Assembly: GCA_944324865.1 (NCBI GenBank)
Contig: CALUXW010000005.1
Coordinates: forward strand, 1 to 64,000
Length of the DNA: 64,000 nt
Source: Candidatus Gastranaerophilales bacterium
Lineage (GTDB): Bacteria; Cyanobacteriota; Vampirovibrionia; Gastranaerophilales; Gastranaerophilaceae
Direction: 5' to 3'
The stretch's first letter is position 1. The number at the start of each line of letters is the position of its first letter. Made by a program: the position numbers and the translations under genes. Shown here in pieces: positions 43,899-64,000 of the stretch. The notes below the pieces were generated by a model. It did not search any database. It saw nothing but the letters and a program-made list of their open reading frames with translations, and had not been told where the DNA came from.

Positions 43899-43972
43899 GG
43901 CAAGGTAGCTCAGTTGGTGAGAGCGCACGGCTCATACCCGTGAGGTCGAGAGTTCGAATCTCTCCCTTGCTA
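43899..43972 (+). tRNA. tRNA-Met (anticodon CAT), elongator type
   Basis: Acceptor GGCAAGG/CCTTGCT (one G-U at the end), D arm GCTC/GAGC, anticodon stem CACGG/CCGTG with loop CTCATAC (CAT), T arm GAGAG TTCGAAT CTCTC, discriminator A. CCA is not encoded. The sequence around the anticodon matches bacterial elongator tRNA-Met rather than tRNA-Ile2 or initiator. The accessory region starts right after it. Confidence 0.93.
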
Positions 43973-47329: not shown

Positions 47330-47737
47330 ATGGCAAAATTTAATAAATTAAAACAGGCTCAAAAGCTTTATGTGCAAGAAAATAAAACACTTGGCGAAAT
47401 TGGAATAGAACTTGATTTGTCCCGCAGGACTTTGTTTTATTGGAAAAAGAAATACGACTGGAACAAACGGAAGTTTGAATACGAGTACGAAAAAGACGCG
47501 TTCAGCCAAGAATTGCTTGAACTTGCAAGGAAAATGATGCGAAAATTGAACAACGATTTGGATAAAAATTCGCACACAAACCAATCCGAAATTTATTCAT
47601 TCATGAACATCCTAAAAAACATCCCTCTGCTCAAAGAATACGAGGCTTCTATTGCTCCATCCAAACCAAAACAACAAAACTTTCTCACCCCCGAACAAGT
47701 CCGCAAAATCGAAAGAGAAGTCTTGGGGATGGAGTAA
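47330..47737 (+). CDS. HTH protein, Mu gp27 / terminase-small-subunit-like
   Basis: 135 residues. Residues about 5-50 are an HTH of the kind in small terminase subunits and Mu-type DUF1804 proteins: KQAQKLYVQENKTLGEIG, then LSRRTLFYWKKKYDW. A helical region and a C-terminal LTPEQVRKIEREVL segment follow. It begins directly after the stop of the previous gene. Role in the element is probably DNA binding; a phage-type packaging role is not supported by neighbours. Confidence 0.65.
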   Translation: MAKFNKLKQAQKLYVQENKTLGEIGIELDLSRRTLFYWKKKYDWNKRKFEYEYEKDAFSQELLELARKMMRKLNNDLDKNSHTNQSEIYSFMNILKNIPLLKEYEASIAPSKPKQQNFLTPEQVRKIEREVLGME

Positions 47738-47782
47738 TACGACACTCTTTTTTATGCTACTATCATAAAAAAGAGGTTTGTT

Positions 47783-48613
47783 ATGAATATTCATAGAAAA
47801 ATGTGTATAAGTTTAAGTGTAATATTTTTTCTTTCCATAATTGTGTTTTATATTGTTCGTTCAGCACATCCTACGATATCCAATATTTTAATTGCCATTC
47901 TGACCGGTGCTTTTTTGGCAATTTATACTGCATTCGTTAATTATTTGCATGAACGCGAAGAATTTTTCAATAATTTATTTTTTACAGGTATTTTTGTAGA
48001 TTTAAATTTTGAACAGATAAAACAACTAATTGCTAATCTTAACGGAAACTCTAACTTAAAATATGCAACAAAAGCTGTTGAAAATTACGCAAATACAATT
48101 AACAATATAATTATGAATGTCAATTTTACGCGATATGCGCCTTTCTTAAAAAACTCAAAAGAAGCAAAAATGGTTGAGCAAATTCAATCCATATATAATT
48201 TAGTACAAAAATCAATTATAATAGCATCAAGCTATATGGAATGTTCCAGTTTGAAAGCAGAAATGTTGGCATTAAAAATACATTCTAAAATCCATCCTTG
48301 TACTTCTTGCAATATTCCCGTGGGGCAGAGGCCTATTGCATCACAGTGCAGTGCTTATATCGAATACGAAAAAACCGTCAAGGAATTAGATGAGCAATTT
48401 AAACAACAAAATAATGTAACAGTAAATTGGATAAATGCCATATTTCAAAATACAACAAATTTGCAAGCTGAATATCTTGATATTATGAAATGCTTGCATT
48501 GCAAAACCAAAAATAAAACGAAATGGGAAGAAACAATAAAAGCAAATAAAGAGCATGTTGCTAAATCAATGCAAAGTTACGTTGAAAATTCTATTAACAG
48601 ACAAGAATATTAA
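47783..48613 (+). CDS. Two-helix membrane protein with Cys pairs, unknown
   Basis: 276 residues. Two N-terminal hydrophobic helices (about 8-27 and 32-52) precede a long helical cytoplasmic part with CTSC, C near QRPIASQC, and CLHC, which may bind metal. AAGAGG precedes the ATG. Codon use is AT-rich again, unlike the transposition genes just upstream, so it probably has a separate origin. No family recognised; its place in an island with defence genes is the only clue. Confidence 0.55.
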   Translation: MNIHRKMCISLSVIFFLSIIVFYIVRSAHPTISNILIAILTGAFLAIYTAFVNYLHEREEFFNNLFFTGIFVDLNFEQIKQLIANLNGNSNLKYATKAVENYANTINNIIMNVNFTRYAPFLKNSKEAKMVEQIQSIYNLVQKSIIIASSYMECSSLKAEMLALKIHSKIHPCTSCNIPVGQRPIASQCSAYIEYEKTVKELDEQFKQQNNVTVNWINAIFQNTTNLQAEYLDIMKCLHCKTKNKTKWEETIKANKEHVAKSMQSYVENSINRQEY

Positions 48614-48673
48614 TGAGATGTCAAAATTTAAAATTTATAGGTGGAGTTTCTTCTAAAGTTTCTCTGGTAAGTT

Positions 48674-48880
48674 CTATTCTTCAGAATCATTAACGTCTTC
48701 CATCGGCACTATTTCATCAAGTTCGATATGATAACGCTTTCCTTTTGCATCAACACAGGTTGCAAACCAAATGCTTCCATCTGCAAATTCGTTTTTCCAA
48801 GTTTTGATTAGCAATCCAATTTCATTTGTTTGGCGGTTTAAAATTTTTGTTCCGAATAATAAGTCTAATTTTTTAGTCAT
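48674..48880 (-). CDS. Small beta-rich protein, unknown
   Basis: 68 residues, acidic, with alternating beta-type segments (LFGTKILNRQTNEIGLLIKTW, SIWFATCVDAKGKRYHIELDEI). It looks like a small SH3/Tudor-like barrel, but this is a guess. AAAGGAA precedes the ATG. It lies 25 bp after the 111-residue gene, probably co-transcribed. Confidence 0.5.
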   Translation of the reverse strand: MTKKLDLLFGTKILNRQTNEIGLLIKTWKNEFADGSIWFATCVDAKGKRYHIELDEIVPMEDVNDSEE

Positions 48881-48905
48881 ATTATGTTCCTTTCAAGCTA
48901 CACAA

Positions 48906-49241
48906 TTAATCGCTCTTTTGACAAGAAACATCAACTGTATTTGTCTCAAATCGTATCATTTCGACACAAATATTTTTTGAACACCTTTTGAACAGCATTT
49001 GAATAAGATTTAAATGTTGTTTATTTTCAAGTTCTTTTTCGTGGTCAATGAAGAACGCATTCAATAAATCTGCATCGTATCTCAAATGCTTTACTACCGG
49101 TGCAAGATTGTAGCATTCTTCAATTTCCGGTTGGCTTGCAACAAAATAATCTATAACAACGACTGTGTTATAAACATTTTCTGCCCATTTGCTTAATTGC
49201 TTAAATTCTTTTTGTGTAATGTTTAATCCGATTTTTTCCAT
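48906..49241 (-). CDS. Small helical protein, unknown
   Basis: 111 residues, mostly helical, with no signal or membrane segment. AGGAGG lies 7 nt before the ATG. The last 20 codons run through the possible right end of the transposable element (48957-48968), so its C terminus may have been altered by insertion. No family recognised. Confidence 0.5.
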   Translation of the reverse strand: MEKIGLNITQKEFKQLSKWAENVYNTVVVIDYFVASQPEIEECYNLAPVVKHLRYDADLLNAFFIDHEKELENKQHLNLIQMLFKRCSKNICVEMIRFETNTVDVSCQKSD

Positions 49242-49310
49242 CTACGACCTCCTTTTCTTTTCAGGTGTCGTATTCATCACTCGAAGTTAAAATTAAATCA
49301 AGTCTTATGG

Positions 49311-52300
49311 TTATTCAATATCAAATCCACCATCTAATATAAAACGTTTGAGTAATTCGTTTGCTTTTACGTTTATCATTAACGGGGATAATTCTTTGCC
49401 TTCTGATTTTTTGAAAAATTCCTTTGCAATATCAATATTAATGGATTGTTTTAAATCATTAAACCTTCCATATGAATTCAAGTTTGATTCATTAAGACCA
49501 GCATCCATCATTCCTCTTAATTTGGATTCGTCAAGACCAAGGGCGGTTGCCATTTTATGTATCCTATCATTTTTTGCATTTGACATATATTCATTTACAT
49601 AATCTTTAAAAGTTTTGCCTTCTTCCATTGTGGCTGCGCCACTTTCAATATCAAGCAAAAATGATTTAGCATATTTTTGTTCTTCTTGAGATAATGTAGC
49701 AAAGGATTTATGCAATTCTTGTTTTGTTGACTCTAATTCTTCCGGTGAAATATTTTCTTGTTTTAAATTGCGCAAGTACTTCTCAAAGCGAGAATTCATA
49801 TAATTGGCATCTATAACTCCTGTGTCAATTTCAGTTAAATATCCATCTATTTCATAAGGAACGTCGCCTGCGCCACCATTTCCTCCTCTAGGAAGTTCTT
49901 TGTACCTTTGTGCAAGAATTAAGTAGTCTTTTTCTGTGAAATTAATTTCAACGATTTCTATTTTTCCGTTATCTTTTTTATTGGTATAAGTGGTTTTATT
50001 CCAAACAAAGCCCTGTATTCTTGCAGCTTCTAAATGTTCTGTTAGTTTTTTAAATAACGAAGCAAATTTACCTCTTACGGGTTTTTCTTCCGGCAATTTA
50101 TCAAAGTTAGGGACTCCAGCATTATTAAATAAGTCAGATATATCACGAAATATTTCGTTCATTTTTGCAACATTATATACAATCTTATTAACAAACAAGC
50201 CAATTGGTTTGTCTCCGGAATACAATTTAACTGCACGATTTATATTTCTTTCCATTGTGTGAGGCTTGCGGTAATATCTAATATTACCAAATGGTTTTTC
50301 GTTTCCAAATAATCTATTTGTTCTTGAAAATGCCTGTATTATATCAGCATATTCCATAAGTTTATCCATATAAAGCGTATTAACCCATTTTGAGTCAAAA
50401 CCTGTGAGCATTTGGTTTACAACTATAAGCATGTGTAACTGTTTTTCAGGTTCTTTATGTATTCCTAAGTATGGTTTTTTATGTGCAAGTCTTGCTGAAA
50501 CATCTTTTTTAAATAAATCATAAGTTGGAATAGTAAATGTTGTACCATACATATCATTGTAGTCTTTTAACATTTCTACAATTCCATCTTCTTTATCAAG
50601 TGCAAAATAACTTTCATTGTCTATAGAAGGATCAAATAGTGCTGTTATTTTTAGTTCCGGTTTTAGTTTTCTAAATTTTCTATAATATTCTATAGCTTCG
50701 GGTATCCCACTTGTTGCAAATATTGCGTGGAATTTCCCACCGTGACTTAACCTTGTCCAATTATCTAATATATCCTTTATTACGTTGTCTTGATGAATAT
50801 CTGTTTGATATTGAACGGTAGGGATGTAATCTTCTATTCCTTTTTTATATTTACCAGCTTTGTCATAATCTCCTGCCATTGGAACATTATTCATAAATTC
50901 ATAATAAATTTCACTTTTTTTAGGATCGGCAATAGCTTCTTCTTCTGTTTTGCATTTTGCTTGTTCTAAAGCAACAATTTTTCTTAAATCTTTATCCTTA
51001 TATGTCATAATCTTATCAGGATCAAAGCCAAGAACATTTCCATCTCTAATACCATCGGCAATACTGTATCTATGTAATTCATCCCCAAATACAGCAGCAT
51101 TGGTTAAATCTTTTTTACTGTTTTCATCCATAATGGGAGTGCCGGTAAAGCCAAAGAATATAGCCTTAGGGAATGTTTGTTTAATTGTAATCAACATTTC
51201 GCCAAAGGTATCACGGTGACATTCATCAATGATAAAGACAATTCTTTTAGATTGTATTGTTTCTAAATCATGAGCTTTTAGCCCTTGCATATCCTGTGTT
51301 ATATTACTCATCTTTTGAATAGAGGTAACTATTAAAGTATCTTTTGTATCATCGCTTTTTAATTTTGAGACAAGCTCATTTGTATTTTCTGTCTCCTGAA
51401 CCTCATCGCATTCATCAGCAAATGCACGATACTCTTTTAATGATTGAACACATAATTCAATCCTATCCATTAAAAATACAACTTTATCAGCATCTTTTGA
51501 ATTAGCAATCAATTGTGCCGATTTAAAAGATGTCATTGTTTTGCCGGAACCTGTGGTATGCCATATATAACCACCTAATTGATTTTCTGAATCCCATTTT
51601 GTATTCTTGACTTTATCTGAGATTTTACTTGATGCATAGAATTGGTAGCTTCGCATAACTTTCAAAATGCCATCTGCATCATCTGCTACGGTATAGTATC
51701 CAATTAGCTCATGTGCCATTGGAATTGATAACAACGAAGATGCGATTTGCGACCAATCATTTATCGGTTCATTATTGAAATCGGCCCAATGAAAATAATA
51801 ATCTTTATTAAATTTGTCATAATGTCCTGGATTTGCAAAATACAAAGTTTCATCAGGATTCATAGCTACAAATATTTGTATTAAAGAAAATAATCCTGTA
51901 AATACGCCTTCTTTAGAATATTTCTGGATTTGATTACATGCTTGAGAAACATGAACCCCACTTCTCTTTAATTCTATATGTATAACAGGCATACCGTTAA
52001 TTAAGAGCATTAAATCGCCTCTGCGTTCCGGCAACATTTTTTCTAATGGTTTAAATTTTGGTTGCTTCACAATTTGATATCTACTTTGCCCTGCTGCAAT
52101 TTCTTGTCTATCATATATTTTCAAGCTGATTTCTTTACCAAAATGTAATTTATCATCAGGATTATCTCTTGTTATAGATATTGTCTTACCATTTATAAAG
52201 CCATTCAATTTTAAAGGAGATTTAAGTGTTTTTATTTGTTCAATAATCTGTTGCATTTCACTTTCAGTTAAAGGAAAATCACCCAGTCTATCTACACTTC

Positions 52301-52442
52301 TATTATTTTCATAGAGAATTTTTGCCCAATTTTCCAATAAATCATTTTCAGTCGGATATTTTATAATATCAGATTCCCAACCGTGCTTGGTTAATACACC
52401 TATTAATTTATTTTCAAATTCAGCTTCATTCTTAAATGTCAT
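49311..52442 (-). CDS. hsdR: Type I restriction enzyme R subunit
   Basis: 1043 residues, the motor and nuclease subunit. The N-terminal nuclease has PVIHIELKRSG with upstream Asp (GDLMLL), the PD-ExK core. The helicase has Walker A TGSGKT, DECHR (DEAD-type), FFGFTGTP and, in the second RecA domain, MLTGFDSKW and QAFSRTNR. A helical C terminus binds the methylase complex. It is third in the hsdM-hsdS-hsdR order, 26 nt after hsdS, and looks intact. Confidence 0.95.
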   Translation of the reverse strand: MTFKNEAEFENKLIGVLTKHGWESDIIKYPTENDLLENWAKILYENNRSVDRLGDFPLTESEMQQIIEQIKTLKSPLKLNGFINGKTISITRDNPDDKLHFGKEISLKIYDRQEIAAGQSRYQIVKQPKFKPLEKMLPERRGDLMLLINGMPVIHIELKRSGVHVSQACNQIQKYSKEGVFTGLFSLIQIFVAMNPDETLYFANPGHYDKFNKDYYFHWADFNNEPINDWSQIASSLLSIPMAHELIGYYTVADDADGILKVMRSYQFYASSKISDKVKNTKWDSENQLGGYIWHTTGSGKTMTSFKSAQLIANSKDADKVVFLMDRIELCVQSLKEYRAFADECDEVQETENTNELVSKLKSDDTKDTLIVTSIQKMSNITQDMQGLKAHDLETIQSKRIVFIIDECHRDTFGEMLITIKQTFPKAIFFGFTGTPIMDENSKKDLTNAAVFGDELHRYSIADGIRDGNVLGFDPDKIMTYKDKDLRKIVALEQAKCKTEEEAIADPKKSEIYYEFMNNVPMAGDYDKAGKYKKGIEDYIPTVQYQTDIHQDNVIKDILDNWTRLSHGGKFHAIFATSGIPEAIEYYRKFRKLKPELKITALFDPSIDNESYFALDKEDGIVEMLKDYNDMYGTTFTIPTYDLFKKDVSARLAHKKPYLGIHKEPEKQLHMLIVVNQMLTGFDSKWVNTLYMDKLMEYADIIQAFSRTNRLFGNEKPFGNIRYYRKPHTMERNINRAVKLYSGDKPIGLFVNKIVYNVAKMNEIFRDISDLFNNAGVPNFDKLPEEKPVRGKFASLFKKLTEHLEAARIQGFVWNKTTYTNKKDNGKIEIVEINFTEKDYLILAQRYKELPRGGNGGAGDVPYEIDGYLTEIDTGVIDANYMNSRFEKYLRNLKQENISPEELESTKQELHKSFATLSQEEQKYAKSFLLDIESGAATMEEGKTFKDYVNEYMSNAKNDRIHKMATALGLDESKLRGMMDAGLNESNLNSYGRFNDLKQSINIDIAKEFFKKSEGKELSPLMINVKANELLKRFILDGGFDIE

Positions 52443-52468
52443 TATATTGTTTCCTTAATTATTTTTTA

Positions 52469-53701
52469 TTATACAAACATTTTTTCCAGACAAGATTTCT
52501 TTATATTTTGGAGCATTTTTAACTTGCGTTGATGAAGAGCGATAAGATCGTCTAACTTGCTAAAAAATACGCCAATTTTAGTTTGTTCTTCATATGACGG
52601 ATGAATAACAGGAAAGTCGACAAGGATATTTTGGTTTAAATGTTTTATTGTTCCACCGGTTGCTCTTTTTACTACATAATCCATTAAAAACGGGGCTTTC
52701 AAGTATTGGAATAAATATTTATTTTCCATATTCTTATCGATAATAACAACATTAAAGACTCCGGCATTTAATGTTGCTGGTTTATCCAAACCCTCTACAT
52801 ATGCTACTTTTCCAAGAGTTCCATCTTTTGTAATAAGGATACTTCCATTTTTTATTTGAATATTTTTATCTTGGTCATATCGTTCTTTTTCAACAAAATG
52901 GCATGTTTTCAGATCTATTTTCCCATCAATAAAATCCGTTCCTGTTATTAAATAATAATTTCCACTATCTAAAAATTCCGAAGTCCTAAGATTTTGCCAA
53001 CCAATTCTTGCATGCATAGTAGCAACACTTGAGAGTTTATGTTCTTCCCAAGGGGCAGAAAATCCCTTAAATCTTATCTCTGGATTTTTATTCTTGTTTT
53101 TGGGAAACATTTTTTCTAACATAGATTTTTTTACATTTTTCAGTTTTTCATACTTACGCTGATAAAGTGTGATAAGACTGTCTATGTGCTCAAATAAAGT
53201 ACCTATTTTTATTTGTTCTTGGTACTTAGGTATATTTATTTGTATTGTTTTAAATTTATTGTGAGCTAAAACCTTCTGTCCAGTACCTTCTGCAGCCATA
53301 GAAAGCTGTCTTTTTATTCCGTAATTCAATCTTCTTAATAAAAAATTTGAATCAGAATTTTTAGATTTAAATACTGGATAGTAGTAGCTTATAATTCCTT
53401 TATCTATAATATTATTTCTGTTAAAAACAAATATATCGGTATCACTTCTACTACGATAGGTGAAATATCCTTTTGGTAAAACGTAATAACCAACATTATT
53501 ATTTGTAGTAACTTGTCTATCAGCAAAATATTCTGATTGAAGAACAATACCTTGCTGTTGAGATGACGTTAAAACAGGATATTGATTTTGTGCAACAGTT
53601 TTTTCTATATAATCTTCAATTACATCAGAAACCTTATTTTGTTCCCAAACATCAGAAAATCCTTTAAATCGTATTTGTGGTTTTTGCTCTCTTTCAGGCA
53701 T
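52469..53701 (-). CDS. hsdS: Type I restriction specificity subunit S
   Basis: 410 residues with two target-recognition domains, each begun by an IRFKGFS...WE segment and separated by a conserved helix (LITLYQRKYEKLKNVKKSMLEKMF), which recurs at the C terminus (LIALHQRKLKMLQNIKKSCLEKMF). Each domain reads half of a bipartite site. The start is ATG 53701 within the hsdM stop (TAATG). Both domains are intact; no partial second hsdS or inversion site is seen nearby. Confidence 0.94.
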   Translation of the reverse strand: MPEREQKPQIRFKGFSDVWEQNKVSDVIEDYIEKTVAQNQYPVLTSSQQQGIVLQSEYFADRQVTTNNNVGYYVLPKGYFTYRSRSDTDIFVFNRNNIIDKGIISYYYPVFKSKNSDSNFLLRRLNYGIKRQLSMAAEGTGQKVLAHNKFKTIQINIPKYQEQIKIGTLFEHIDSLITLYQRKYEKLKNVKKSMLEKMFPKNKNKNPEIRFKGFSAPWEEHKLSSVATMHARIGWQNLRTSEFLDSGNYYLITGTDFIDGKIDLKTCHFVEKERYDQDKNIQIKNGSILITKDGTLGKVAYVEGLDKPATLNAGVFNVVIIDKNMENKYLFQYLKAPFLMDYVVKRATGGTIKHLNQNILVDFPVIHPSYEEQTKIGVFFSKLDDLIALHQRKLKMLQNIKKSCLEKMFV

Positions 53702-56268
53702 TAATCTTCCCCTCCTAAAAGCAGTTGCCATTCCTTGAGGCCTTTCATATCATATTCATTCCCGGTTAATTCATCTATAAACGATGCTAACATCTTTTCT
53801 GTTTCGTTTATTTCTGTATCTAAATCAGTTAATGTTGTAGAATATTTTTCAGATAATTTCTGAATTTTATTTGATAACTCTGTTATAACCCCTATTGGCA
53901 AAGAATTTATTCCGTCAGTTATTGGTTTTATCCATTTTAACTTTAATAAATCATACACTTGTTCATCTAATAAATTTTCAATAGTTGTCTTTGTTTTGTC
54001 ATGCAATAAGTCAGAATCTTTTTTAATTTCAGCTTTTAAAGTCTTTTCTTTAGCAAGCAGTTCATTTACTTTTAATATGATTAACTCAAATTCAGAAGCA
54101 TCTTTTTTATCTATATCTTTCGCCATTTTCTTTACTTCTGCAGCAACAAAAGCTGTGCCATCTTCATTTATTGCCTCTGAATCTTTGTCATCTTCTGAAA
54201 TAGAATCTAAACATTCCGCATACTGTTCGATAATTTCAGATAGTAGCTCTTCTTTTTCTTTGAGTTTTTTTGTATCATCTTTTAATAAGGTTTGTTGTAC
54301 CAATTCAAACGGAATAATATGCCCTTTCCATCCTACTTGTACTTCAACCTCTTTATTATTTTTCTTTTTTGTTTCCATCAAAGGATCAACTTGTTTTGAA
54401 GCTTCAAAGCCCTCTGTATTTAGAATTTCCAAATCAACTGCAATTTTAGTTGTCCAAGCATCATCTAATAGCTGATATGCTTCGTATTTATTTATAAGGT
54501 CAGGGTATTTTAAACGTTTTTGAATTTCAAAATTTATAATTTCTTCTTCCATTGCTACATTAATATTTGACATATTATTTATAAGTTCTTGTTCTAAGTA
54601 TTTGTCAAAACCGGAGAATGACAAATTATATTCAGTAATAAATTTGTTTACATCAGTATTGTTTTTAATAGCATCTTTTATGTTATCAACAGCCATTTCA
54701 TAATATTCTTCATTGATATTTTTAAAAAGTGTAGACATTAATGACGGATAAGCATCCCAGTATTTTTGTAATTCTAATACTTCAGACTTCGGGATACCTC
54801 CAAACATAGAAGCATAAATATCCCAACTTTCTGATTTTTCAGAAGAATCAACATACCTAGGTATATTTAAGTTATACTCGTTATCCTGGATTTCTTGTTT
54901 TGAAACAAGCTTTGAAAATTTTGGAATGGCTGCTCTGCCAACAACAGCATCAACAATTTTCTTAATATCACATGCACGAAGTTTGTTGTTTTTACCTTCT
55001 TTTATATAACCCTTTGATGCATCTACAATTAAAACATCATTGTCCTTTCGTTTTTGCTGAAGAATCATAATAATTGTTGGAATACCAGTTCCAAAGAAAA
55101 TATTAGGAGGCAAACCAATAATTGCAACTATATTATTTTGCTCTATAAGATTTTTTCTTATAGTTAATTCCTCACCACCGCGGAACAATACTCCATGAGG
55201 CAAAACAATTGTCATAATGCCATCAGGTTTAAGGTGATATAAATCATGAAGCAAAAACGCATAATCAGCTTTTGTCTTTGGTGCTATACCATATCTTGTA
55301 TATCTTGGATCATTATCCTTGTTTGCGGGATCCCAATTTTGCGAATATGGGGGATTGGATACAACAGCATCAACATACAATGGAATATATGTACCGGCAG
55401 GGTCATTTTCTTCAAAATATGGCCAATCTTCTTCTAAGGTATCGCCATTGCGAGTTACAATATTATCCGGTGAAATATTCCTCATCACCAAATTCATACG
55501 AGTTAAGTTATAAGTGTTTTGTTTTAACTCTTGTGCGTAGTATTTTATTGCATCTTGATTATTGTTATATTTTGCTATTGAACGACCTATATTAATAAGC
55601 AAAGAACCGGAACCACTTGTAGGGTCATATATTTGTATTTCTTCTTTATTTCTCAAATGGTTTGCGATAATTTCACTCATTAGTAAAGAAACTTCATGAG
55701 GCGTGTAAAATTCCCCAGCTTTTTTTCCAGCATTGGCTGCAAAATTACTAATCAAATATTCATATATAAAACCAAGAACATCATAGCTTTGTTTACCGCT
55801 CATAGGGATATCCTTGATTAGGTATAATAAATCGCTAATAGCTTTAGTTTGTGAAGCTGCACTATCTCCTAATTTACTTAACCCAGTTTCAAGAGTATTA
55901 AAAATTCCGTCAAATACTTTTTTATGATTATCATTAATTAATCTACTGAATGCAGAAAGAGCATCCCTGACATTTGATACATCAAAATCTTTTCCCATTT
56001 CAAGCCAAGTTGAAAACAAATCGTTGTAGGATATAAAATAACCAATGTTAGTACGAATATGCTCAGTTAGGTCACCATCTTCTTTTAATAGCGTTCTTAT
56101 CTCATCGTCAGTAGCACCTTGACTTTTTAAAAAATCCAATTCTTTGTCAGACAAATACTTATAAAAAATAAAGCCTAAAATATAATCTTTATATTCATTT
56201 GCTTCAATTTTAGAACGCATTTTATTTGCTGATTCCCAAATTCTTGCAGCTAATTCTTGCTTATTCAA
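53701..56268 (-). CDS. hsdM: Type I restriction-modification methyltransferase M
   Basis: 855 residues. The N-terminal HsdM helical domain is followed by the N6-adenine methyltransferase core with DPTSGSGSLL (SAM site, about residue 215) and VSNPPYSQNW (about 300). The C-terminal 300 residues are an acidic, coiled-coil-rich extension beyond the usual 500-residue HsdM, as in some longer family members. It methylates host sites and forms the complex with HsdS and HsdR. It leads the operon, divergent from the DUF4365-like gene. Confidence 0.94.
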   Translation of the reverse strand: MNKQELAARIWESANKMRSKIEANEYKDYILGFIFYKYLSDKELDFLKSQGATDDEIRTLLKEDGDLTEHIRTNIGYFISYNDLFSTWLEMGKDFDVSNVRDALSAFSRLINDNHKKVFDGIFNTLETGLSKLGDSAASQTKAISDLLYLIKDIPMSGKQSYDVLGFIYEYLISNFAANAGKKAGEFYTPHEVSLLMSEIIANHLRNKEEIQIYDPTSGSGSLLINIGRSIAKYNNNQDAIKYYAQELKQNTYNLTRMNLVMRNISPDNIVTRNGDTLEEDWPYFEENDPAGTYIPLYVDAVVSNPPYSQNWDPANKDNDPRYTRYGIAPKTKADYAFLLHDLYHLKPDGIMTIVLPHGVLFRGGEELTIRKNLIEQNNIVAIIGLPPNIFFGTGIPTIIMILQQKRKDNDVLIVDASKGYIKEGKNNKLRACDIKKIVDAVVGRAAIPKFSKLVSKQEIQDNEYNLNIPRYVDSSEKSESWDIYASMFGGIPKSEVLELQKYWDAYPSLMSTLFKNINEEYYEMAVDNIKDAIKNNTDVNKFITEYNLSFSGFDKYLEQELINNMSNINVAMEEEIINFEIQKRLKYPDLINKYEAYQLLDDAWTTKIAVDLEILNTEGFEASKQVDPLMETKKKNNKEVEVQVGWKGHIIPFELVQQTLLKDDTKKLKEKEELLSEIIEQYAECLDSISEDDKDSEAINEDGTAFVAAEVKKMAKDIDKKDASEFELIILKVNELLAKEKTLKAEIKKDSDLLHDKTKTTIENLLDEQVYDLLKLKWIKPITDGINSLPIGVITELSNKIQKLSEKYSTTLTDLDTEINETEKMLASFIDELTGNEYDMKGLKEWQLLLGGED

Positions 56269-56381
56269 AATCTAACCCTCTCTCCCTCATATCCCTAAAA
56301 TTATAGTACCATAGAAGTTTTTATCTTGCATGTTTATTAATTATTGTAATAGTAAGGCAAAATAGTCTAAGATGTTTGTAA

Positions 56382-56387
56382 TATAAT
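56382..56387 (+). promoter_or_regulatory. -10 box TATAAT of the DUF4365-like gene, leaderless geometry
   Basis: TATAAT ends 6 nt before the ATG at 56394. The same geometry as in core genes shows that the island gene uses the host-type signal. Confidence 0.6.
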
Positions 56388-56393
56388 TTCCTT

Positions 56394-57500
56394 ATGACAC
56401 GCAGAACTAAAAATACAATAACAGAGAAAAAGGGAATCAACGTAGTTAAAACACTAGTGGAAGATAATGGATCAATATTTCGCGAAATATCAACCGTAGA
56501 TGATCTTGGGCATGATGCGAATATAGAGTTTTGTGAGTTGCATAATGATGAATATAGACCTTCGGGCATTGAAATAAAAGTTCAAATAAAATCAGGAGAG
56601 TCGTATTTTAATACAAATCAAGCTTTTATCAAAGGAGACAAAAATCATTTTGAATACTGGAAAAAACATATATTGCCTACAATTGGAATTGTTTATAATC
56701 CTAAAACAAGAATATTATATTGGGTTAATATCTCTGAATACATAGAACAACAAGAAGAATTTAATACTTATAATATACCTTGTAATAAAATCTTAAACGA
56801 AACAAATTTTAAAAATTTTGTAAATGAATGTTCAAATTATTGTAGAAATAATAAAAATAGAATTGATTCAGAAATGAGATTGGATACTTTATATTCTGAA
56901 AACTCAGAAGATGCTTGTAGTGCTTTAAAAACTCTATTCTTGTATTATAGAGATTCTCAATTATTCTGGAATACAATAATATCGTATTTAGCAATTTGCA
57001 AAGATAGATTTGTTCTAAAAATGATAGTTTATTATTTATCTATAGCAATAGGGCATCAGGGAGATGTATTTTGGCATAAAGATAATGAAATAAAGCAATC
57101 TATTAAAAGATGGCTAACAAAAAAATTTAACGATATTGTCGATGAAAATATATTATACAAGATATTATCTGTAATAAATGAAGATGAAGGAATAGATAGA
57201 GGAACTATAGGTAACTATATTATTCTTTTTATAAAAGAGATAAAAAACAAAAAAGAACTTCTTATTAAAGTATTTGAAAATACACAGTATGAATTTTACA
57301 TTAGAGATATTGCATTAATGTATTATTTAAGTGAATGTTCTTCAGATAAAGCATTAAACTGGCTACAACAAAATCTTAATTGGTTAAATAATGAACAATT
57401 ACCAATAAACTTAAATATAAAAAAATACCCTGAATTTAAACAACAATTTGAACTTTATAAAGATTGTATCGAAAAGTATGATGGCATATTTGTATACTAA
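56394..57500 (+). CDS. DUF4365-like protein with a PD-(D/E)xK-type N-terminal domain
   Basis: 368 residues. The N-terminal 150 have the DUF4365 layout: GSIFREISTVDDLGHDANIEF, then GIEIKVQIKSGESYF and WKKHILPTIGIVYNP. D in GHDANIEF and E-x-K in IEIKVQIKSG are arranged as in PD-(D/E)xK nucleases. The C-terminal 200 are helical, possibly a repeat scaffold, with no known domain. DUF4365 proteins often occur with restriction and defence genes. It stands alone between the type I system and the four-gene operon. Confidence 0.7.
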   Translation: MTRRTKNTITEKKGINVVKTLVEDNGSIFREISTVDDLGHDANIEFCELHNDEYRPSGIEIKVQIKSGESYFNTNQAFIKGDKNHFEYWKKHILPTIGIVYNPKTRILYWVNISEYIEQQEEFNTYNIPCNKILNETNFKNFVNECSNYCRNNKNRIDSEMRLDTLYSENSEDACSALKTLFLYYRDSQLFWNTIISYLAICKDRFVLKMIVYYLSIAIGHQGDVFWHKDNEIKQSIKRWLTKKFNDIVDENILYKILSVINEDEGIDRGTIGNYIILFIKEIKNKKELLIKVFENTQYEFYIRDIALMYYLSECSSDKALNWLQQNLNWLNNEQLPINLNIKKYPEFKQQFELYKDCIEKYDGIFVY

Positions 57501-57707
57501 TACTATTCTAAAATCTAATTCCAATCATTCTTCGTGTTTTCATCAAAAGATACAAATAGTATTATTTATTTGATTAAAGAAACAAATAATAGTGCAAAAT
57601 TGTTATAATTAATGCCACAAATATATCTCAATATTTTCCATCTTTATTTGTTTGCTCTATAACTATGTAATGGATGGTAATATAATTATTATAAAATTAT
57701 AAAAACT

Positions 57708-58268
57708 TTATTCATGCTTATCAAAAAATAAATCACAAAGTTCCTCCAGCTCCATATAAAGAGATTTAGGAATACTTGCATTTTCATCAATATTATTTAT
57801 TTTTTCATAAAGTACCATAGCTTGATGGATTTCTTTGATAGGTCTAGATTGGAACTGAAAAACATTGGCCATATACACACCTAAATTAGTTTTTGGAACT
57901 ATATTCCCGTTTTCATCTCTACTTAAGTGCTCATCAAACTCTTCTGATGTCGGATCAATAAAACCACAATCTCCATTATGACATACCAATGGATCTTCTG
58001 TAGGCCATTTCCCGCCTTTTTTACGATTACAGGTAAAACAAGAAAAAACAAGATTGTTATAATCGTTAATTCTAGTTTTTGAATATTTTTTAGGTACAAA
58101 ATGATCAGGCTCAAACATAGCTCTTGATATTTTATAATACTTCCCACAATATCCACATATGCCTTGAAAATCTTCTTTTAATTCTGGATAGTATTCTCTA
58201 TAATTGTTTTTTTCTTCTATGTTAGATCTTCTTCTTATTTTTTTACTTCCATGAACTCTATTATTCAT
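57708..58268 (-). CDS. HNH endonuclease, last gene of the MTase-kinase-receiver operon
   Basis: 186 residues. A basic N terminus (KKIRRRSN) precedes the HNH/zinc unit: C38-x2-C41, EPDHFVP (D55, H56), N71-N72 and C77-x2-C80-N81. All expected residues are present, so it should cleave DNA. The C-terminal half is helical and may bind partners. The start is 1 nt after the receiver gene stop, with AAGGAA as ribosome site, so it is coupled to it. It is probably the effector of the system. PtuB-like HNH proteins of Septu are a possible relative. Confidence 0.85.
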   Translation of the reverse strand: MNNRVHGSKKIRRRSNIEEKNNYREYYPELKEDFQGICGYCGKYYKISRAMFEPDHFVPKKYSKTRINDYNNLVFSCFTCNRKKGGKWPTEDPLVCHNGDCGFIDPTSEEFDEHLSRDENGNIVPKTNLGVYMANVFQFQSRPIKEIHQAMVLYEKINNIDENASIPKSLYMELEELCDLFFDKHE

Positions 58269-58269
58269 T

Positions 58270-58896
58270 TTAGCATTCCTTTTTTATAATTTTATCTAGT
58301 TTTTCAATTAAAGAATTTATTTTTATAGACATTTGTGAAGTTAATAATTCTGTTGGAATAATATCAATTTCTCCATATGCTTTTAAAAGATTGTATAACT
58401 GGCATAAATTTTCTTCTTCATCAGTGGTAATATCAGTTTCTTGTTTTTTCTGATATAGAACTGTAAATTCTTGTTTGCGTTGTTCCAATCTTTTTTTAAA
58501 TGTTCTACAAGCTTGAGCCAATGAATTGCCAAATTCGGTATATTTTAAATCTTCTCCTGGCAAGTCATCTCGATCTTTTATTAATAATTCAATAACCAAA
58601 TCTTCTGCGATGGAATCATTTTTAAAACTAGTAACAATTACACATGGTAAATCTGGAATTTTTTTATTGAAAAAGGTAATAACATCCGTTCCAACAAAAT
58701 CATATTTATTTACCAATTTATGATCAACCAAAAGGCATTGTACTTGATTATGTATAACCCAATCTAATATATCATTTAAGGTAGTACAATTTTCAATAGG
58801 TATCAAATTTACAAAGTCTTCCAGATTTTCTTTTAAGTCTTTGTAATCAGTATTATCATCTAAATATCCTACAATATACTCTTCCTGATTAGTCAT
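58270..58896 (-). CDS. Response-regulator receiver protein without classical DNA-binding domain
   Basis: 208 residues. The receiver residues are all in place: D13-D14 (YLDDN), phospho-acceptor D58 (LLVDHKL), T89/S90 (VIVTSF) and K107 (LLIKDRD). The insert between D58 and the switch region is longer than in CheY. The C-terminal 90 residues are helical (FKKRLEQRKQEF, LNSLIEKLDKII), with no HTH. So it may signal by protein contact, for instance with the HNH nuclease. The start at 58896 overlaps the kinase stop by 8 nt. Confidence 0.8.
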   Translation of the reverse strand: MTNQEEYIVGYLDDNTDYKDLKENLEDFVNLIPIENCTTLNDILDWVIHNQVQCLLVDHKLVNKYDFVGTDVITFFNKKIPDLPCVIVTSFKNDSIAEDLVIELLIKDRDDLPGEDLKYTEFGNSLAQACRTFKKRLEQRKQEFTVLYQKKQETDITTDEEENLCQLYNLLKAYGEIDIIPTELLTSQMSIKINSLIEKLDKIIKKEC

Positions 58897-61174
58897 GCTT
58901 AACATCCCCTTCTAATTTTATTAACGCAAAAAATCCATCTTTAGCTATAATGTTCCCCGATAAATCTATTGCCCCATTATATTCATTGATGGTTTTATTA
59001 ATTATCCACATTCCCATACCTGTTCCGATAAGTTCTCCTTGTGAGTTCCTGGAACTTGTTTCTAGTGCTTCTAATATCAAGTTAGGATCTTGTTTATATT
59101 TAGAGTCTAAGCCTTTACCATTATCAGAATAGTCTAAACTAATGGAATTTTCTTGTGATTTTATTTTTATATAAATTTCAGGTTTATTTACTCTTGCATT
59201 TTCAAAACTTTTTATACTGTTAGCAATTAGGTTACCTATGATGCTTTCTATATCATATAAAAAACATTTAAATTTAATATCTTCTATTTCAGCAATTATA
59301 TTTATATGTTTAGTTTGTAAAACAGTTTCCCATGATTCTAATATATTACCTAAAGAAAGTTTTAAAGGTATAAATTTCCTTTCTCTTTTGTCTTTTTTTA
59401 CCATATCTATTGTTACTTTAAACCAAGAATTAAGTGAATTTTGTATTGACAATGCTTCATTAATCTGTTCGGAAATATGTTCTATTGGTTTATTTTTATC
59501 AATAGCATTTCTTATTGTTATAATTTTTGTTCTCAATCTACTGGTTGCTTCTTTTATTTCATGAACATAAGTATTTGTAACTATTCCAGTGGTAGCTAAT
59601 GCCCTTAGCATATGGTTTTCTTCTTCTAGTATTTTAATTTTATCATTTTTATTATCTATTACTCTTCCTGCTATTTCAGCATCAACTTTCGGCTTATTAC
59701 TATTTTCATCAGCATCAACAGAAGTTGAAGGGTTGTTTATAGGATTCTTTGATTTTTTGTTTTTTGCTTGCTTGGCTTTATTTTTTATTTCATTTTCATA
59801 TAATTCATCATAATGAGAATCGTCATAATATTTTTTTAGGATGCGAGCTACATATTGTCTATCACGTTCCATTTCTCGTATTATATATATTAAAAAATCT
59901 CTCAAGAGTTTAAACTCTTTTGTTTCAACAATCCCTTCTCTGTTGGATTGGTCTGGAAGATTTATATTTAATCTTGATATATGAACAGATCCCAACATTT
60001 GATCTGAATTGACACGCCAGGAACCAGTTGGATGAGATGGTGCAGCTGGAGACTTTCTATAACGATTGGAAAGTAATAGCCAATCAAAAGCTGTAGTATT
60101 TGGTTCACCATAAGGACGTACTCTAAAATTATCTCTATATATCTTGATGCCACCAAAAGTACCTATAGTACTCTTTCGACCAGTTATATCTTTATAGTAA
60201 TATATTTCTTTATCTTGTTTCGACATTGATAATTTAGAAAAATAAAAACAACCATAAAAAGGTCCGATGTTGGCTATATTTAATCCAGAAATGGCTTCAT
60301 TTATTTGAATATTTTTTTCTATAGGTTTTCCTAAAAAATATTTTTTGTCATCATTAGTAAATGCTGTTTGTTGTATTATTTCATCCAATTTTAAGCCAAA
60401 ATCAAATTCTTCTCTAAATATTTTTATGTTTACGTTCCCATTTTCATTTACTTTAAAATCTATTTTATAATCATGAGAATATAAACCATCATTAACAACG
60501 ATCTGAGCATCTTCTAAATTGCTCTCTTCTGAAAATACATATATTTTAAATATATTTTCCATTTCAGGAGGTATTAATGTTGATAGTCCATTTTTTATTT
60601 GTGTAATTAATGTTTCATCCCATTCATCGTGTAAAAATGATAATTTAAATATTGTTCCACTTGTTACGAAGTGTTTTTTTACAAGATCCTTTAAATTATT
60701 ATTTTTTATTTCTGATATAAATTGATCAAAGCTTCTTTTGCTATCATATATCTCTGCTCCAACTTCTGTTATTTTTTTCCCAATGTTGAAATCTCTCCAA
60801 TCCACATACCATTCTATAGAAGAAGCTGAAGTTTTTGATATCATATTACAAATATCACCAATACGATCTAGGGCAAATCTTCCAATCCCTTTTGCTCCAG
60901 TTTGTATTCTACCAGATTTTAATTGGTAATCATTTTTTTTAGAAGAATATCCTATCGTCATCCAGTTGGAAATGATAGCATCATTATCCATGCCATAACC
61001 ATTATCCATTATATAAAATGTATTAGATGTTTTTTCGTAATATAACACGCAAATATTTGCATCTGCATCATAGGCATTTTTTACAAGTTCTAAAATAGCA
61101 CCGTCTATTTTTGCAACATTTTCTCTACCAATTAGCCTTGCGGTGTAAGCATCTACGTTAAAAGGAATTTTCAT
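58889..61174 (-). CDS. Dual GHKL protein: MORC/MutL-like ATPase joined to a histidine kinase core
   Basis: 761 residues, no membrane helix. The N-terminal GHKL ATPase has E29-L-V-K-N33, DNGYG at 57-61, GYSSKK and TGAKGIGRF at 92-100, the MORC/MutL/Hsp90 pattern. An S5-like middle and a charged linker follow. The C-terminal part is a kinase: H-box VHEIKEATSRL with H538, N-box NLIANSIKSF (about 646), DNGKG (about 681) and GTGMGMW (about 716). So it has two ATPase sites and one phospho-acceptor His. Start 61174 has GGAGG before it and overlaps the methyltransferase stop by 4 nt. Confidence 0.82.
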   Translation of the reverse strand: MKIPFNVDAYTARLIGRENVAKIDGAILELVKNAYDADANICVLYYEKTSNTFYIMDNGYGMDNDAIISNWMTIGYSSKKNDYQLKSGRIQTGAKGIGRFALDRIGDICNMISKTSASSIEWYVDWRDFNIGKKITEVGAEIYDSKRSFDQFISEIKNNNLKDLVKKHFVTSGTIFKLSFLHDEWDETLITQIKNGLSTLIPPEMENIFKIYVFSEESNLEDAQIVVNDGLYSHDYKIDFKVNENGNVNIKIFREEFDFGLKLDEIIQQTAFTNDDKKYFLGKPIEKNIQINEAISGLNIANIGPFYGCFYFSKLSMSKQDKEIYYYKDITGRKSTIGTFGGIKIYRDNFRVRPYGEPNTTAFDWLLLSNRYRKSPAAPSHPTGSWRVNSDQMLGSVHISRLNINLPDQSNREGIVETKEFKLLRDFLIYIIREMERDRQYVARILKKYYDDSHYDELYENEIKNKAKQAKNKKSKNPINNPSTSVDADENSNKPKVDAEIAGRVIDNKNDKIKILEEENHMLRALATTGIVTNTYVHEIKEATSRLRTKIITIRNAIDKNKPIEHISEQINEALSIQNSLNSWFKVTIDMVKKDKRERKFIPLKLSLGNILESWETVLQTKHINIIAEIEDIKFKCFLYDIESIIGNLIANSIKSFENARVNKPEIYIKIKSQENSISLDYSDNGKGLDSKYKQDPNLILEALETSSRNSQGELIGTGMGMWIINKTINEYNGAIDLSGNIIAKDGFFALIKLEGDVKHD

Positions 61175-62583
61175 AACATTTCCTCCATGCAAAATTCATA
61201 ATTATTTACATCTTTCGCTGTAATTCTTAATGAAGTTCCACTTGCTTGAATTCCAATATTATTCACGTATTCTAAAAAATTTTTGCTTTGCAATATTTCT
61301 TGTGCCTTGCCCAAGGGAGTCCCATTTTTTGAAATAATATATATTCCAGCATATGGAATATCCTCTTTTTTTAATTCATATACTTTTATGCTATCAGTCA
61401 CAACCGTGGACATTAATAGTTTTTTCTGATTCAAATGTGCCAAAGCTTGGCTTCTCCCATATTCAAACCATTTTGCGGAAGTATCACTATTTCTCCTATC
61501 TAAATCATCTTTATATTTGCTTAAGTGTGTTGCAGCATTAGGATAATTTTTATTAAAATCTTCCTCCGAGTATTTTTCAAGTTTATTTTTATTATAAAAA
61601 TATGGAAATATAATATTTTCATTTTTTGAATAAGCTAAGTTTCTTGGACTCTTAGCTGGTTTCAATATTTGTTTTTCAATTTTACTAGTTTGTGGGTTTT
61701 CATCTACAATAAAAGCTTTGTTTAATAATGTTGCAATGGAAATAGAAGCATGGAATAAGTCTCCAAATCGGATAAAATTTTTATCTTTATTTTCTATTGG
61801 AACTTTTGAAAATATCCATTTCCCGTGCAAATCACTTTTTTTTATTTTTCTTTTTAATCTAGTATCTTTATTTGTATATTCTATAGATTTTTCTTTTATA
61901 TTCTTTTCGCAAATTAAAATAGATGTTGCTACTAATGCCTTTTCAAAGACTTTTTCTGTTTTGAAATCTATAATTTTTGATATATGTGGAAGCATATATG
62001 TTCTCAGATTTTCAGCATAAACATTTTTAAATATGCTTGTAGGTATTAAATAAGCTAGTTTTCCGTTGTCCTCTAAACAATTAATACTCTTTTCTATAAA
62101 TGCATAACAATAATCAAATTTACCTTTTTTGCAGGTTGTAAAATTATTTTTCACATAATTTCTTACTTCTATAGATAAATCCCTATAGTTAAGATAGGGT
62201 GGATTTCCCGCAATAAATTGAAATTTATTGTTAAAAGCATACTTTAAAAAATCAGTTTTTAATATTTTCCATTTAACATTTGAAATATTGTATTTACTTA
62301 CCAAAATATTTAAATTATCAATACACTTTTGGTATCGGTCCTTATCAATTTCAAATCCCCAAATATCTTTTTCTAGACCACTTTTTATAGACTCTAATGG
62401 TAATTTTTGTTCTAAGCAGTCCCGTATGTATCTTTCCACGGCCATGCTTAATACGGCTCCTTCTCCACAAGAATTTTCGAGAAACGGTTTCCCGTATAAA
62501 TCATGCTTATAGCCAATTGCATTAAGCAATGTAGCAACTTTTTCTTCAGGTGTAAAAATTTGACATCTGCTTATATTTTCCAT
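61171..62583 (-). CDS. N6-adenine DNA methyltransferase, Eco57I/TaqI-like
   Basis: 470 residues. The N terminus FTPEEKVATLLNAIG and the SAM motif ENSCGEGAVL (36-45), then GFEID and the catalytic NPPY at 127-130, mark the gamma-class Eco57I/TaqI-like family. The C-terminal half (from about 240) is a target-recognition domain with ARGRSQAL-type residues (FEYGRSQALAHL). There is no fused nuclease, so cleavage must come from another gene, most simply the HNH at 57708. It leads the operon. Confidence 0.88.
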   Translation of the reverse strand: MENISRCQIFTPEEKVATLLNAIGYKHDLYGKPFLENSCGEGAVLSMAVERYIRDCLEQKLPLESIKSGLEKDIWGFEIDKDRYQKCIDNLNILVSKYNISNVKWKILKTDFLKYAFNNKFQFIAGNPPYLNYRDLSIEVRNYVKNNFTTCKKGKFDYCYAFIEKSINCLEDNGKLAYLIPTSIFKNVYAENLRTYMLPHISKIIDFKTEKVFEKALVATSILICEKNIKEKSIEYTNKDTRLKRKIKKSDLHGKWIFSKVPIENKDKNFIRFGDLFHASISIATLLNKAFIVDENPQTSKIEKQILKPAKSPRNLAYSKNENIIFPYFYNKNKLEKYSEEDFNKNYPNAATHLSKYKDDLDRRNSDTSAKWFEYGRSQALAHLNQKKLLMSTVVTDSIKVYELKKEDIPYAGIYIISKNGTPLGKAQEILQSKNFLEYVNNIGIQASGTSLRITAKDVNNYEFCMEEML

Positions 62584-62683
62584 ATGGACCTATTGATTAT
62601 AATTCTCCTATAATAGATACTAACACAAACAATCAAAATAAGAAATGTGGTTCAATCTCAGCAAACATGGGTATTAATAACCA

Positions 62684-63223
62684 TTATAAATAAAAATTCC
62701 TATAAACTTCATCGATGTCTTCTTGTTCGATGCCGATGTATTGGAGGGTGATGGAGGGGGAAGAGTGGTTAAAAATCTTTTGTAGCATTACTATATCGTC
62801 GTATTGTTGGTAGAAGTGGTAGCCGAAGGTTTTTCTTAGGGTATGTGTTCCGATTCTGCCTTTAATTCCTACCATTCGGGCGGCTTTGTTTATAATTCGG
62901 TAGGCTTGAGCTCTATCCAATCTATATCCTTTTTGTGTATAAAATAAAGGTCTTTCGTCGGGTTTGTCTTTTACGAATTCTTCAATTTCAACTTTCAAGT
63001 TTTCGTTAATTGGAAATTTCTTATATTTATTGGTTTTCTTTTCTCGAAGCTCTATATAGTCTTTTCCTTTTACGTCTTTGACGTCGAGTGAGAGGATATC
63101 GGCAATTCTTAGTCCGCTGTTTATTCCAAAGCTGAAAAGCAGAGCATTGCGTGGTTTCTTTGACAAAACTCTTTTAATATTTTGTATATCTTCTATGCTT
63201 TTTATCGGTTCGACGATGTTCAT
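62684..63223 (-). CDS. Tyrosine recombinase, catalytic domain only
   Basis: 179 residues. Catalytic residues are Arg in SGLRIADIL, Lys in REKKTNKYKKFP, HTLRKTFGYHF (Lys in place of the usual second-site His next to Arg), FNHSSPSITLQ and Tyr in LQYIGI. The N-terminal core-binding domain is missing. Stand-alone catalytic forms of this size are known in phages and plasmids. It lies 100 bp upstream of the methyltransferase on the same strand. A matching lone core-binding domain lies at 46769-47329. Confidence 0.82.
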   Translation of the reverse strand: MNIVEPIKSIEDIQNIKRVLSKKPRNALLFSFGINSGLRIADILSLDVKDVKGKDYIELREKKTNKYKKFPINENLKVEIEEFVKDKPDERPLFYTQKGYRLDRAQAYRIINKAARMVGIKGRIGTHTLRKTFGYHFYQQYDDIVMLQKIFNHSSPSITLQYIGIEQEDIDEVYRNFYL

Positions 63224-63405
63224 AAGTTGTCTTCAAGGTTTTGAGCCACAACATTAATGCCCTAAAAGACAGCAAAAATAATGCCTCGCAACAAAATAGA
63301 ACACAAGCACCCACTCTATTTACCCCTCTTCCATTTACCCACAATCTCAAAAAATACAACATATCATTCTAATGTTGTATTTTTACATTTTAAATAACAT
63401 TTGGG

Positions 63406-63462
63406 ATAATATATTGTCTATATATTGACTTTTTGGCAAAAATGGTATAATATATTATCTAT
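63406..63462 (+). promoter_or_regulatory. hipB operator: two 16-nt direct repeats over the promoter
   Basis: ATAATATATTGTCTAT (63406-63421) and ATAATATATTATCTAT (63447-63462) differ at one position and start 41 bp apart, about four helical turns. The second covers TATAAT (63446-63451) and the hipB ATG. TTGACT (63425-63430) is a possible -35. Binding of the antitoxin here would shut its own promoter. Confidence 0.7.
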
Positions 63463-63745
63463 GAATGAGTTTATTTTTAACCCAAGAACTCCCAATGATA
63501 TTGCAAATGAATTTGTTGAGAAAATCAAGCAACAGAGAAGAATGCTTAAAATTTCACAAGTTCAACTTGCTGCAAAATCAGGTGTTAGTCTGGGTTCTAT
63601 CAAAAGGTTTGAATCTAAATATGAAATTTCACTGACTTCATTGATAAAAATTCTAATTGCTCTTAATTTAGAAAAAGATTTTGAAAATTTGTTTACGCAA
63701 AAAAACTATAATTCCATTGACGAGGTTATAAATGGACAACTATAA
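63461..63745 (+). CDS. hipB: HipB-like antitoxin / XRE regulator
   Basis: 94 residues from ATG 63461. The HTH is IKQQRRMLKISQVQLAAKSGVSLGSIKRFE, given here as RMLKISQVQLAAKSG and VSLGSIKRFE, and a C-terminal tail follows. It overlaps the hipA-like gene by 14 nt, the usual antitoxin-toxin arrangement. HipB neutralises HipA and represses the operon by binding repeats in its promoter, which are visible at 63406-63462. Confidence 0.82.
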   Translation: MNEFIFNPRTPNDIANEFVEKIKQQRRMLKISQVQLAAKSGVSLGSIKRFESKYEISLTSLIKILIALNLEKDFENLFTQKNYNSIDEVINGQL

Positions 63746-64000
63746 ATATTTAAAAGTCTTTCATAATCATATTTTAGTTGGTACTCTTGCTAAAACTCCT
63801 GAAAGAGTTGTCGCATTTGAATATGATTCTGATTGGTTAAATAATGGGTTCAGCATATCGCCTTTTAGTTTGCCACTTATCAAAAAAGTTTTTATCCCCA
63901 AATATGAACCTTTTGACGGATTATTTGGCGTTTTTAATGATAGCTTACCTGATGGCTGGGGAAGATTACTTGTTGACAGGTTATTTTTGAAAAACAAAAT
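63732..64000 (+). CDS. hipA: HipA-like Ser/Thr kinase toxin, N-terminal part
   Basis: About 89 residues visible before the window ends. The start is ATG 63732, inside the end of hipB. FDGLFGVFNDSLPDGWGRLL is the HipA N-terminal subdomain signature, and the protein begins with YLKVFHNHILVGTLAK. The kinase core is outside the window. HipA phosphorylates glutamyl-tRNA synthetase in E. coli and causes dormancy; here the target is not known. Confidence 0.85.
   Translation, partial: MDNYKYLKVFHNHILVGTLAKTPERVVAFEYDSDWLNNGFSISPFSLPLIKKVFIPKYEPFDGLFGVFNDSLPDGWGRLLVDRLFLKNK

Follow-up and report, generated by a model that had tools for sequence, protein, structure and literature searches.

The locus considered here raises the question of why one soluble protein should carry two ATPase sites of the GHKL type together with the H-box of a histidine kinase, and what its neighbouring genes do with it. 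The protein is encoded at 58889..61174 on the reverse (-) strand of the window, by which we mean the whole stretch of 64,000 nucleotides analysed (positions 1 to 64,000 of contig CALUXW010000005.1 of a Candidatus Gastranaerophilales bacterium). The answer that we propose, and to which we give an even chance, is that this kinase is the sensor of a four-gene defence system resembling restriction-modification (R-M), in which a His-Asp phosphorelay would gate a nuclease. The preliminary description of the locus, made from the letters alone, saw a MORC/MutL/Hsp90-type ATPase fused to a kinase core. The fusion stands, while an HNH nuclease, a methylase and a description of related kinases from 2021 had been missed.

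Domain structure and conservation of the kinase

Translation from the ATG gives a protein of 761 aa, and an upstream TTG would extend the frame to 58889-61192(-); the residue numbers used below count from the ATG. Pfam recognises HATPase_c_3 (PF13589, E 7.9e-18) in the N-terminal part and HATPase_c (PF02518, E 1.5e-12) in the C-terminal part. Both matches exceed the curated cut-offs, so they are not due to chance, and both domains are present in all kinase relatives scanned (55 out of 55). Together with residue conservation, an AlphaFold2 model and matches to PDB structures, this divides the protein into a MORC/Hsp90/MutL-type ATPase with an S5-like transducer (aa 6-443), a coiled coil (aa 419-476), the DHp helices, H538 included (aa 499-593), and a HATPase_c kinase domain (aa 596-758). 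The highest 19-residue Kyte-Doolittle mean is 1.06 and there is no transmembrane-like stretch, which agrees with the earlier claim of two GHKL sites in one soluble protein.

The catalytic residues of both halves are strongly conserved. Conservation of H538 in homologues had been set beforehand as a test of the kinase assignment, and the residue is invariant, as are N648 and N652 (86 out of 86 homologues each); it is followed by E in 72 homologues and by D in 14. The N-terminal ATPase has E29 and N33 in 83, D57/G59/G61 in 84 and the GxKGxG lid (G93/K95/G96/G98) in all of the 86, and in the C-terminal ATPase D684/G686/G688 and G717/G719/G721 are found in 85. The non-conserved cases in this 86-row alignment are gaps, save for a single row with other residues at E29/N33.

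The AlphaFold2 model (mean pLDDT 83.5, 55 homologues in the input) shows that the second GHKL fold, whose absence would have spoken against the preliminary description, is present. Residues 6-443 match MORC3 with Z 22.2 and rmsd 3.7 over 307 residues, and the N-terminal half also matches solved structures of Hsp90 and MutL, as had been proposed. For residues 526-758 the matches are histidine-kinase cores (ZraS at Z 19.1), and for residues 535-758 HK853 gives a Z of about 18. The HK853 alignment ranges run at a constant offset of 278, which places H538 on H260 of HK853, the residue that we take to be its phospho-acceptor. The 761-aa protein is thus a combination of a MORC-type ATPase module and a histidine-kinase core: the features of a two-component histidine kinase (DHp helices, phospho-acceptor His, N, G1 and G2 boxes) and those of a MORC/paraMORC ATPase (GHKL and S5 fold, catalytic Glu/Asn, GxKGxG lid) are all there.

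In Foldseek, the top match of the kinase is DNA-bound MORC2. Hsp90 scores about as well as MORC, so that the fold alone gives no verdict on DNA; a protein with an Hsp90-like fold need not bind it, and this counts against an input that reads DNA.

Receiver, nuclease and methylase form one operon with the kinase

The gene next door encodes a receiver protein of 208 aa (58270..58896, reverse strand), identified by conservation, AlphaFold2 and comparison with receiver folds. It consists of a five-stranded domain with D13, D58 and T89 and of a helical C-terminal tail (116-207). The model has a pLDDT of 89 and its best receiver-fold matches reach Z 13.9, although the Pfam Response_reg match is sub-threshold only. 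D58, pointed out in the preliminary description, is present in 82 out of 82 homologues, and D13 and T89 in 78 each; the numbers count from the ATG at 58896, and an upstream start would turn D58, D13 and T89 into 61, 16 and 92. Neither Pfam nor the AlphaFold2 model reveals a DNA-binding or other recognisable output domain in this protein.

The receiver is followed by an HNH endonuclease of 186 aa (57708..58268, reverse strand; Pfam HNH, E 3.6e-9). H56 and N72 are found in 76 out of 76 homologues and N81 in 75. Its nearest known models are PtuB of Septu and of retron Ec78 (PADLOC PtuB, E 1.7e-12). Upstream of the kinase lies an Eco57I-type DNA methyltransferase of 470 aa with an NPPY motif (61171..62583, reverse strand; Pfam Eco57I, E 3e-23; PADLOC MTase_II, E 7.5e-57), in which N127/P128/P129 are conserved in 78 out of 79 homologues, and which by its family is predicted to be adenine-specific. 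The locus thus shares with type II R-M systems the pairing of a methyltransferase with a nearby endonuclease.

All four genes lie on one strand and abut or overlap, the ATG of the receiver being situated within the 3' end of the kinase gene; the median intergenic gap is 0. Promoter and terminator scans gave matches no more frequent than in shuffled sequences.

Distribution of the cassette

A profile of the kinase found 476 relatives in genome contigs, and the locus counts that follow cover the best 80 of these 476. As these are the best matches, linkage is measured in the nearer relatives, and the more distant ones bear other effectors. The hosts of the 80 loci belong to Bacillota, Bacteroidota, Pseudomonadota, Campylobacterota, Deferribacterota and Melainabacteria, and there is one archaeon (Methanolobus). 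The receiver is directly downstream of the kinase in 80 out of 80 loci. The HNH gene is present in 76, and the contigs of the other four stop within 173 bases past the receiver. The methylase is present in 74; five of the remaining six loci are cut by contig ends, which leaves L055 as the only true exception. The methylase may be the first gene of the cassette, as it is here, or the last. Two of the loci (L029 and L030) are identical to the one in this metagenome assembly, and plasmid relatives in Bacteroides, Salipiger and Deinococcus have the same operon make-up. This four-gene cassette of adenine methylase, kinase, receiver and HNH nuclease, found in several phyla and one archaeon, is new here.

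Searched with the kinase, viral contigs yielded no relatives and phage records only two partial matches, and we have rejected an origin as a phage system for this reason. Two single loci may be mentioned separately. A contig of 5.5 kb (L053:1-5550) holds only the four cassette genes and has a 22-base terminal overlap, so that it might be a circle, a tandem copy or an assembly artefact. We doubt the circle, since closure joins the kinase to the receiver without a stop codon, and an artefact is as likely. Within the order Gastranaerophilales, a truncated kinase N terminus (L010, G080:C69; 72% identical) stops after about 129 residues and is a decayed relic.

Exchange of the methylase

Kinase, receiver and HNH nuclease diverge in step: rho between their pairwise identities is 0.88-0.92 in loci with an upstream methylase and 0.70-0.79 in those with a downstream one. 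The methylase correlates with these three proteins only at rho 0.40-0.51 (upstream) or 0.21-0.29 (downstream), a weaker value that may partly stem from aligning several methylase subfamilies together. Kinase, receiver and HNH are co-inherited, and the methylase is freely exchanged.

A pair of loci illustrates this exchange. The DNA of L034:1187-6116 and L078:1180-6113 is 96.2% identical over 4.9 kb, a segment that spans the methylase and ends about 120 bases into the kinase gene. Past this point the kinases are 33%, the receivers 18% and the HNH proteins 26% identical, and beyond the cassette the homologous flank resumes at 83% identity. We conclude that the methylase stayed as it was while the three genes behind it, for kinase, receiver and HNH, were replaced together. 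The converse pairing also occurs, i.e. kinases that are 58-70% identical accompany methylases that are 15-18% identical. For an HNH with a site specificity of its own, such a block swap should be lethal or useless unless the two sites were the same; the simplest reading is that the methylase provides the specificity.

These pairings bear on the view that the locus is an ordinary type II R-M system, made of a methylase and a site-specific HNH enzyme, whose two-component pair only tunes expression or senses the NTP level. Methylase and HNH do resemble a minimal R-M pair, and an N-terminal ATPase that senses NTP concentration has been speculated upon for related kinases by Bellieny-Rabelo, Pretorius and Moleleki (2021, PMC8011034). 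A site-specific HNH must match its methylase, though, and this is hard to square with a 96%-identical methylase standing beside 26%-identical HNHs, or with the converse case. The exchange argues against an HNH that recognises the site of the methylase unaided, and we consider an ordinary type II system very improbable.

Sister branches and other effectors

The more distant double-GHKL kinases retain the kinase-receiver pair. One branch (Hymenobacter, Burkholderia, cyanobacteria) has a protein of the metallo-beta-lactamase (MBL) fold at the position of the HNH. In a second, fused-receiver branch (Campylobacter plasmids; L135, L136) a C5 methylase is found with a receiver of 340-383 aa. The third has the layout of the HEF_HK kinases discussed below, which at L134 comprises a C5 methylase, a kinase of ~1000 aa, a receiver protein of ~600 aa and Vsr. 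In the kinase tree each of these forms a single group (91/83 for the HNH branch; 100/100 each for MBL, fused-receiver and HEF), with the caveat that on the HEF side the tree joins long branches. The receivers of the C5-methylase branches (L134:7659-9512, L136:6610-7674 and L008:9168-10190) have a long fused C-terminal domain, which takes the effector position and is without a Pfam match. In both kinds an S/TPxCD motif occurs and the C-terminal ends are alike (hhalign E 1.7e-4 over 36 columns), and the domain may be a common output domain.

Effectors are interchangeable at the HNH position, as they are in abortive systems. In abortive infection, the relay would sense the loss or inhibition of methylation, or takeover by a phage, and would turn the HNH nuclease, which resembles PtuB, against the DNA or RNA of the host; the cell would be killed or arrested, in place of a cut in unmodified phage DNA. 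The kinship of the HNH models with Septu and retron Ec78 fits this scheme, and relay signalling suits an all-or-nothing switch. What speaks against it is the methylase, which is present in 74 of the 80 loci (again the best 80 of 476) and is not needed by abortive systems. We regard abortive infection as rather unlikely.

The cassette resides on a mobile island

The cassette is part of an island (43974..64000, no strand assigned) that continues to about 64897 on the contig (locus L151). The segment 43885-64897 is 99.05% identical over 21,024 bases to the genome of another Gastranaerophilales genus. The island begins directly after a tRNA-Met gene (43898-43973), and to the left of this gene, where enolase and MatE genes are situated, identity to the other genus is only about 75%. 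Besides the four-gene cassette and a type I R-M system it carries genes for Tn7-like transposition, of which a TnsB-like gene (44399-46099) and a TniB/AAA gene (46032-46772) stand at its start; it looks like a Tn7-related element. The kinase is absent from all 14 congeners examined. Judged by these identities, what we see is a recent transfer of a defence island between genera. We also considered misbinning as the cause of the 99% match and think it unlikely, since the two contigs have, next to the tRNA, chromosomal flanks that have diverged from one another.

Several other genes of the region deserve mention. The type I R-M system adjoining the cassette is complete (49311-56268; hsdM of 855 aa, hsdS, hsdR), and between the two R-M systems lies a DUF4365 protein on the opposite strand (56394-57500, +), for which PADLOC gives a weak match to the model of an Argonaute-associated nuclease. 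A short tyrosine recombinase of 179 aa, with the catalytic domain only, is encoded closely upstream of the methylase (62684-63223, -). An HTH and HipA-type pair, a hipBA-like toxin-antitoxin (63425-63745 and L151:3732-4838), stands at the right-hand end of the island. Beyond position 64,000 there follow a DUF4917/SIR2-like protein (L151:4943-6040) and a protein of 871 aa that has an ADP-ribosyltransferase domain at its C terminus (L151:6152-8767).

The mobility of the island favours one further explanation, namely that kinase and receiver are a brake that restrains the nuclease until the host DNA carries methylation, as control proteins do in some type II systems, and that no invader is sensed. 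A role in the control of R-M systems was also proposed for the related kinases (PMC8011034). An island that moves between genera makes establishment in a naive host a real problem. The receiver is without a recognisable DNA-binding domain, however, and the type II control proteins known to us are small transcription factors. We find a mere brake improbable.

A proposed mechanism

We return to the phosphorelay-gated nuclease. In this scheme the kinase would autophosphorylate on H538 and pass the phosphate to D58 of the adjoining receiver, which, via its helical tail, would release or recruit the HNH nuclease. The methyltransferase would shield self DNA and provide sequence specificity, so that one nuclease module could work with different methylases. 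The place of a sensor domain is taken by the MORC-like ATPase, which would read what state the DNA or a methylase-DNA complex is in.

What the analysis establishes are the folds, the conservation of the catalytic residues, the operon, the joint inheritance of kinase, receiver and nuclease, and the methylase exchange; the steps of the relay are inferred from these with differing strength. Phosphotransfer from H538 to D58 is likely because of the linkage in 80 out of 80 loci and the co-inheritance of the two proteins. It is moderately likely that the receiver controls the nuclease by contact, although co-inheritance of receiver and HNH does not prove that they touch each other. We also think it moderately likely that the methylase acts as specificity subunit. 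That DNA clamping by the MORC-like half is the input, so that clamp closure would drive phosphorylation as the preliminary description suggested, is plausible, with a low to moderate likelihood. Put together in full, the proposal is that a His-to-Asp relay licenses cleavage, that a MORC-type clamp-kinase reads the methylase-DNA complex, that a swappable methylase re-targets a fixed kinase-receiver-nuclease module, and that the sister branches plug in other effectors; this complete version is tentative and we are somewhat doubtful of it.

As a rule, restriction enzymes are controlled through their recognition of DNA and through movement driven by NTP. If a phosphorelay does govern a restriction-like system, the principle of control would be a different one. 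That the methylase is freely exchanged points to a nuclease that may be re-targetable. Double-ATPase kinases have been on record since 2021, and the compact cassette of about 5 kb makes the idea directly testable; culturable carriers include Haemophilus haemolyticus, Streptococcus taonis and Cohnella. The shared MORC fold also ties the cassette kinase to the origin of the eukaryotic MORC proteins.

Comparison with known systems

It is useful to compare the cassette with systems that share some of its parts. BbrUII/HgiDII restriction enzymes (NF050001) match only the N-terminal GHKL region of the kinase (aa 32-143, E 3e-14), with a score of 52.5 against a cut-off of 550, and the remainder of the kinase is unrelated to them. 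Detocs is a phage defence made of a histidine kinase, a receiver and an effector acting at the protein level, and in this it is similar to the cassette. Its receiver, however, carries a fused phosphorylase effector, and its kinase has TPRs; to our knowledge it has neither a MORC-like ATPase nor a methylase. As for Septu (PtuAB), the PADLOC matches of the nuclease to PtuA/PtuB models cover the HNH parts, and a PtuA-type ABC ATPase partner is absent from the cassette genes. DefensePredictor lists HATPase and REC, without details, among its unvalidated predicted domains.

MORC-like ATPases are known from related contexts. The paraMORCs have an ATPase of N-terminal GHKL and S5-like type and occur in R-M operons, paraMORC1 being near HNH nucleases (Iyer, Abhiman and Aravind 2008, PMC2292703). 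In contrast to the cassette kinase, they are described there without a kinase core, a receiver or mention of two-component systems (PMC2292703). The type I-D Shedu protein VcSduA, which is of paraMORC3 type, offers a precedent: mutation of the catalytic Glu of its ATPase (E27A) abolished phage defence (PMC12137116). Here, too, a nuclease is under the control of a MORC-like GHKL ATPase, but VcSduA is a single protein with a PD-(D/E)xK nuclease and has neither phosphorelay nor methylase.

The closest relatives are the HEF_HK kinases of Bellieny-Rabelo, Pretorius and Moleleki (2021, PMC8011034), who found the domain order HATPase_c_3+HEF_HK+HATPase_c in 174 out of 222 proteins and noted its association with a receiver gene (91.6%) as well as with R-M genes, HNH_2 and Vsr. 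These authors derived them from paraMORCs (PMC8011034). Among the papers found, theirs is the only one that describes the architecture, and a search of open-access journal papers gave no experimental study, biochemistry or phage assay on either branch. The likeness is extensive: both are soluble kinases made of HATPase_c_3, H-box and HATPase_c, with an H-box whose invariant His has Glu or Asp as the next residue, an adjoining receiver gene and R-M genes around, and the order methylase-kinase-receiver is common to both branches in the HEF members read. The homology of the kinases is full-length (hhalign E 1.5e-27 over 687 columns). The differences are equally clear. HEF members have a kinase of ~1000 aa, a C5 methylase and a receiver protein of 555-617 aa, with Vsr in the member scanned, whereas the HNH-cassette branch has a kinase of ~760 aa, an adenine methylase, a receiver of ~210 aa and a separate HNH. 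The H-box model PF19191 has no match in the 761-aa kinase at E<=1 and in none of 55 kinase relatives at E<=0.01, while a true HEF member matches it at E 6.3e-7. Response_reg_2 (PF19192) matches neither the receiver at 58270-58896 nor any protein of 14 cassette-bearing genomes, and members of it do occur in other genomes. Profile comparison of the short receivers with the HEF receiver proteins, represented by three sequences only, detected no homology (E 0.2). The kinase tree likewise sets the HNH-cassette branch apart from HEF. The kinase architecture itself is therefore not new; going by profiles and tree, the HNH-cassette branch is a homologous sister that lies outside both Pfam models. A phosphorelay-switched design was predicted for the sister family in 2021; here it probably recurs in a branch that has not been given a name, and its layout is easier to read.
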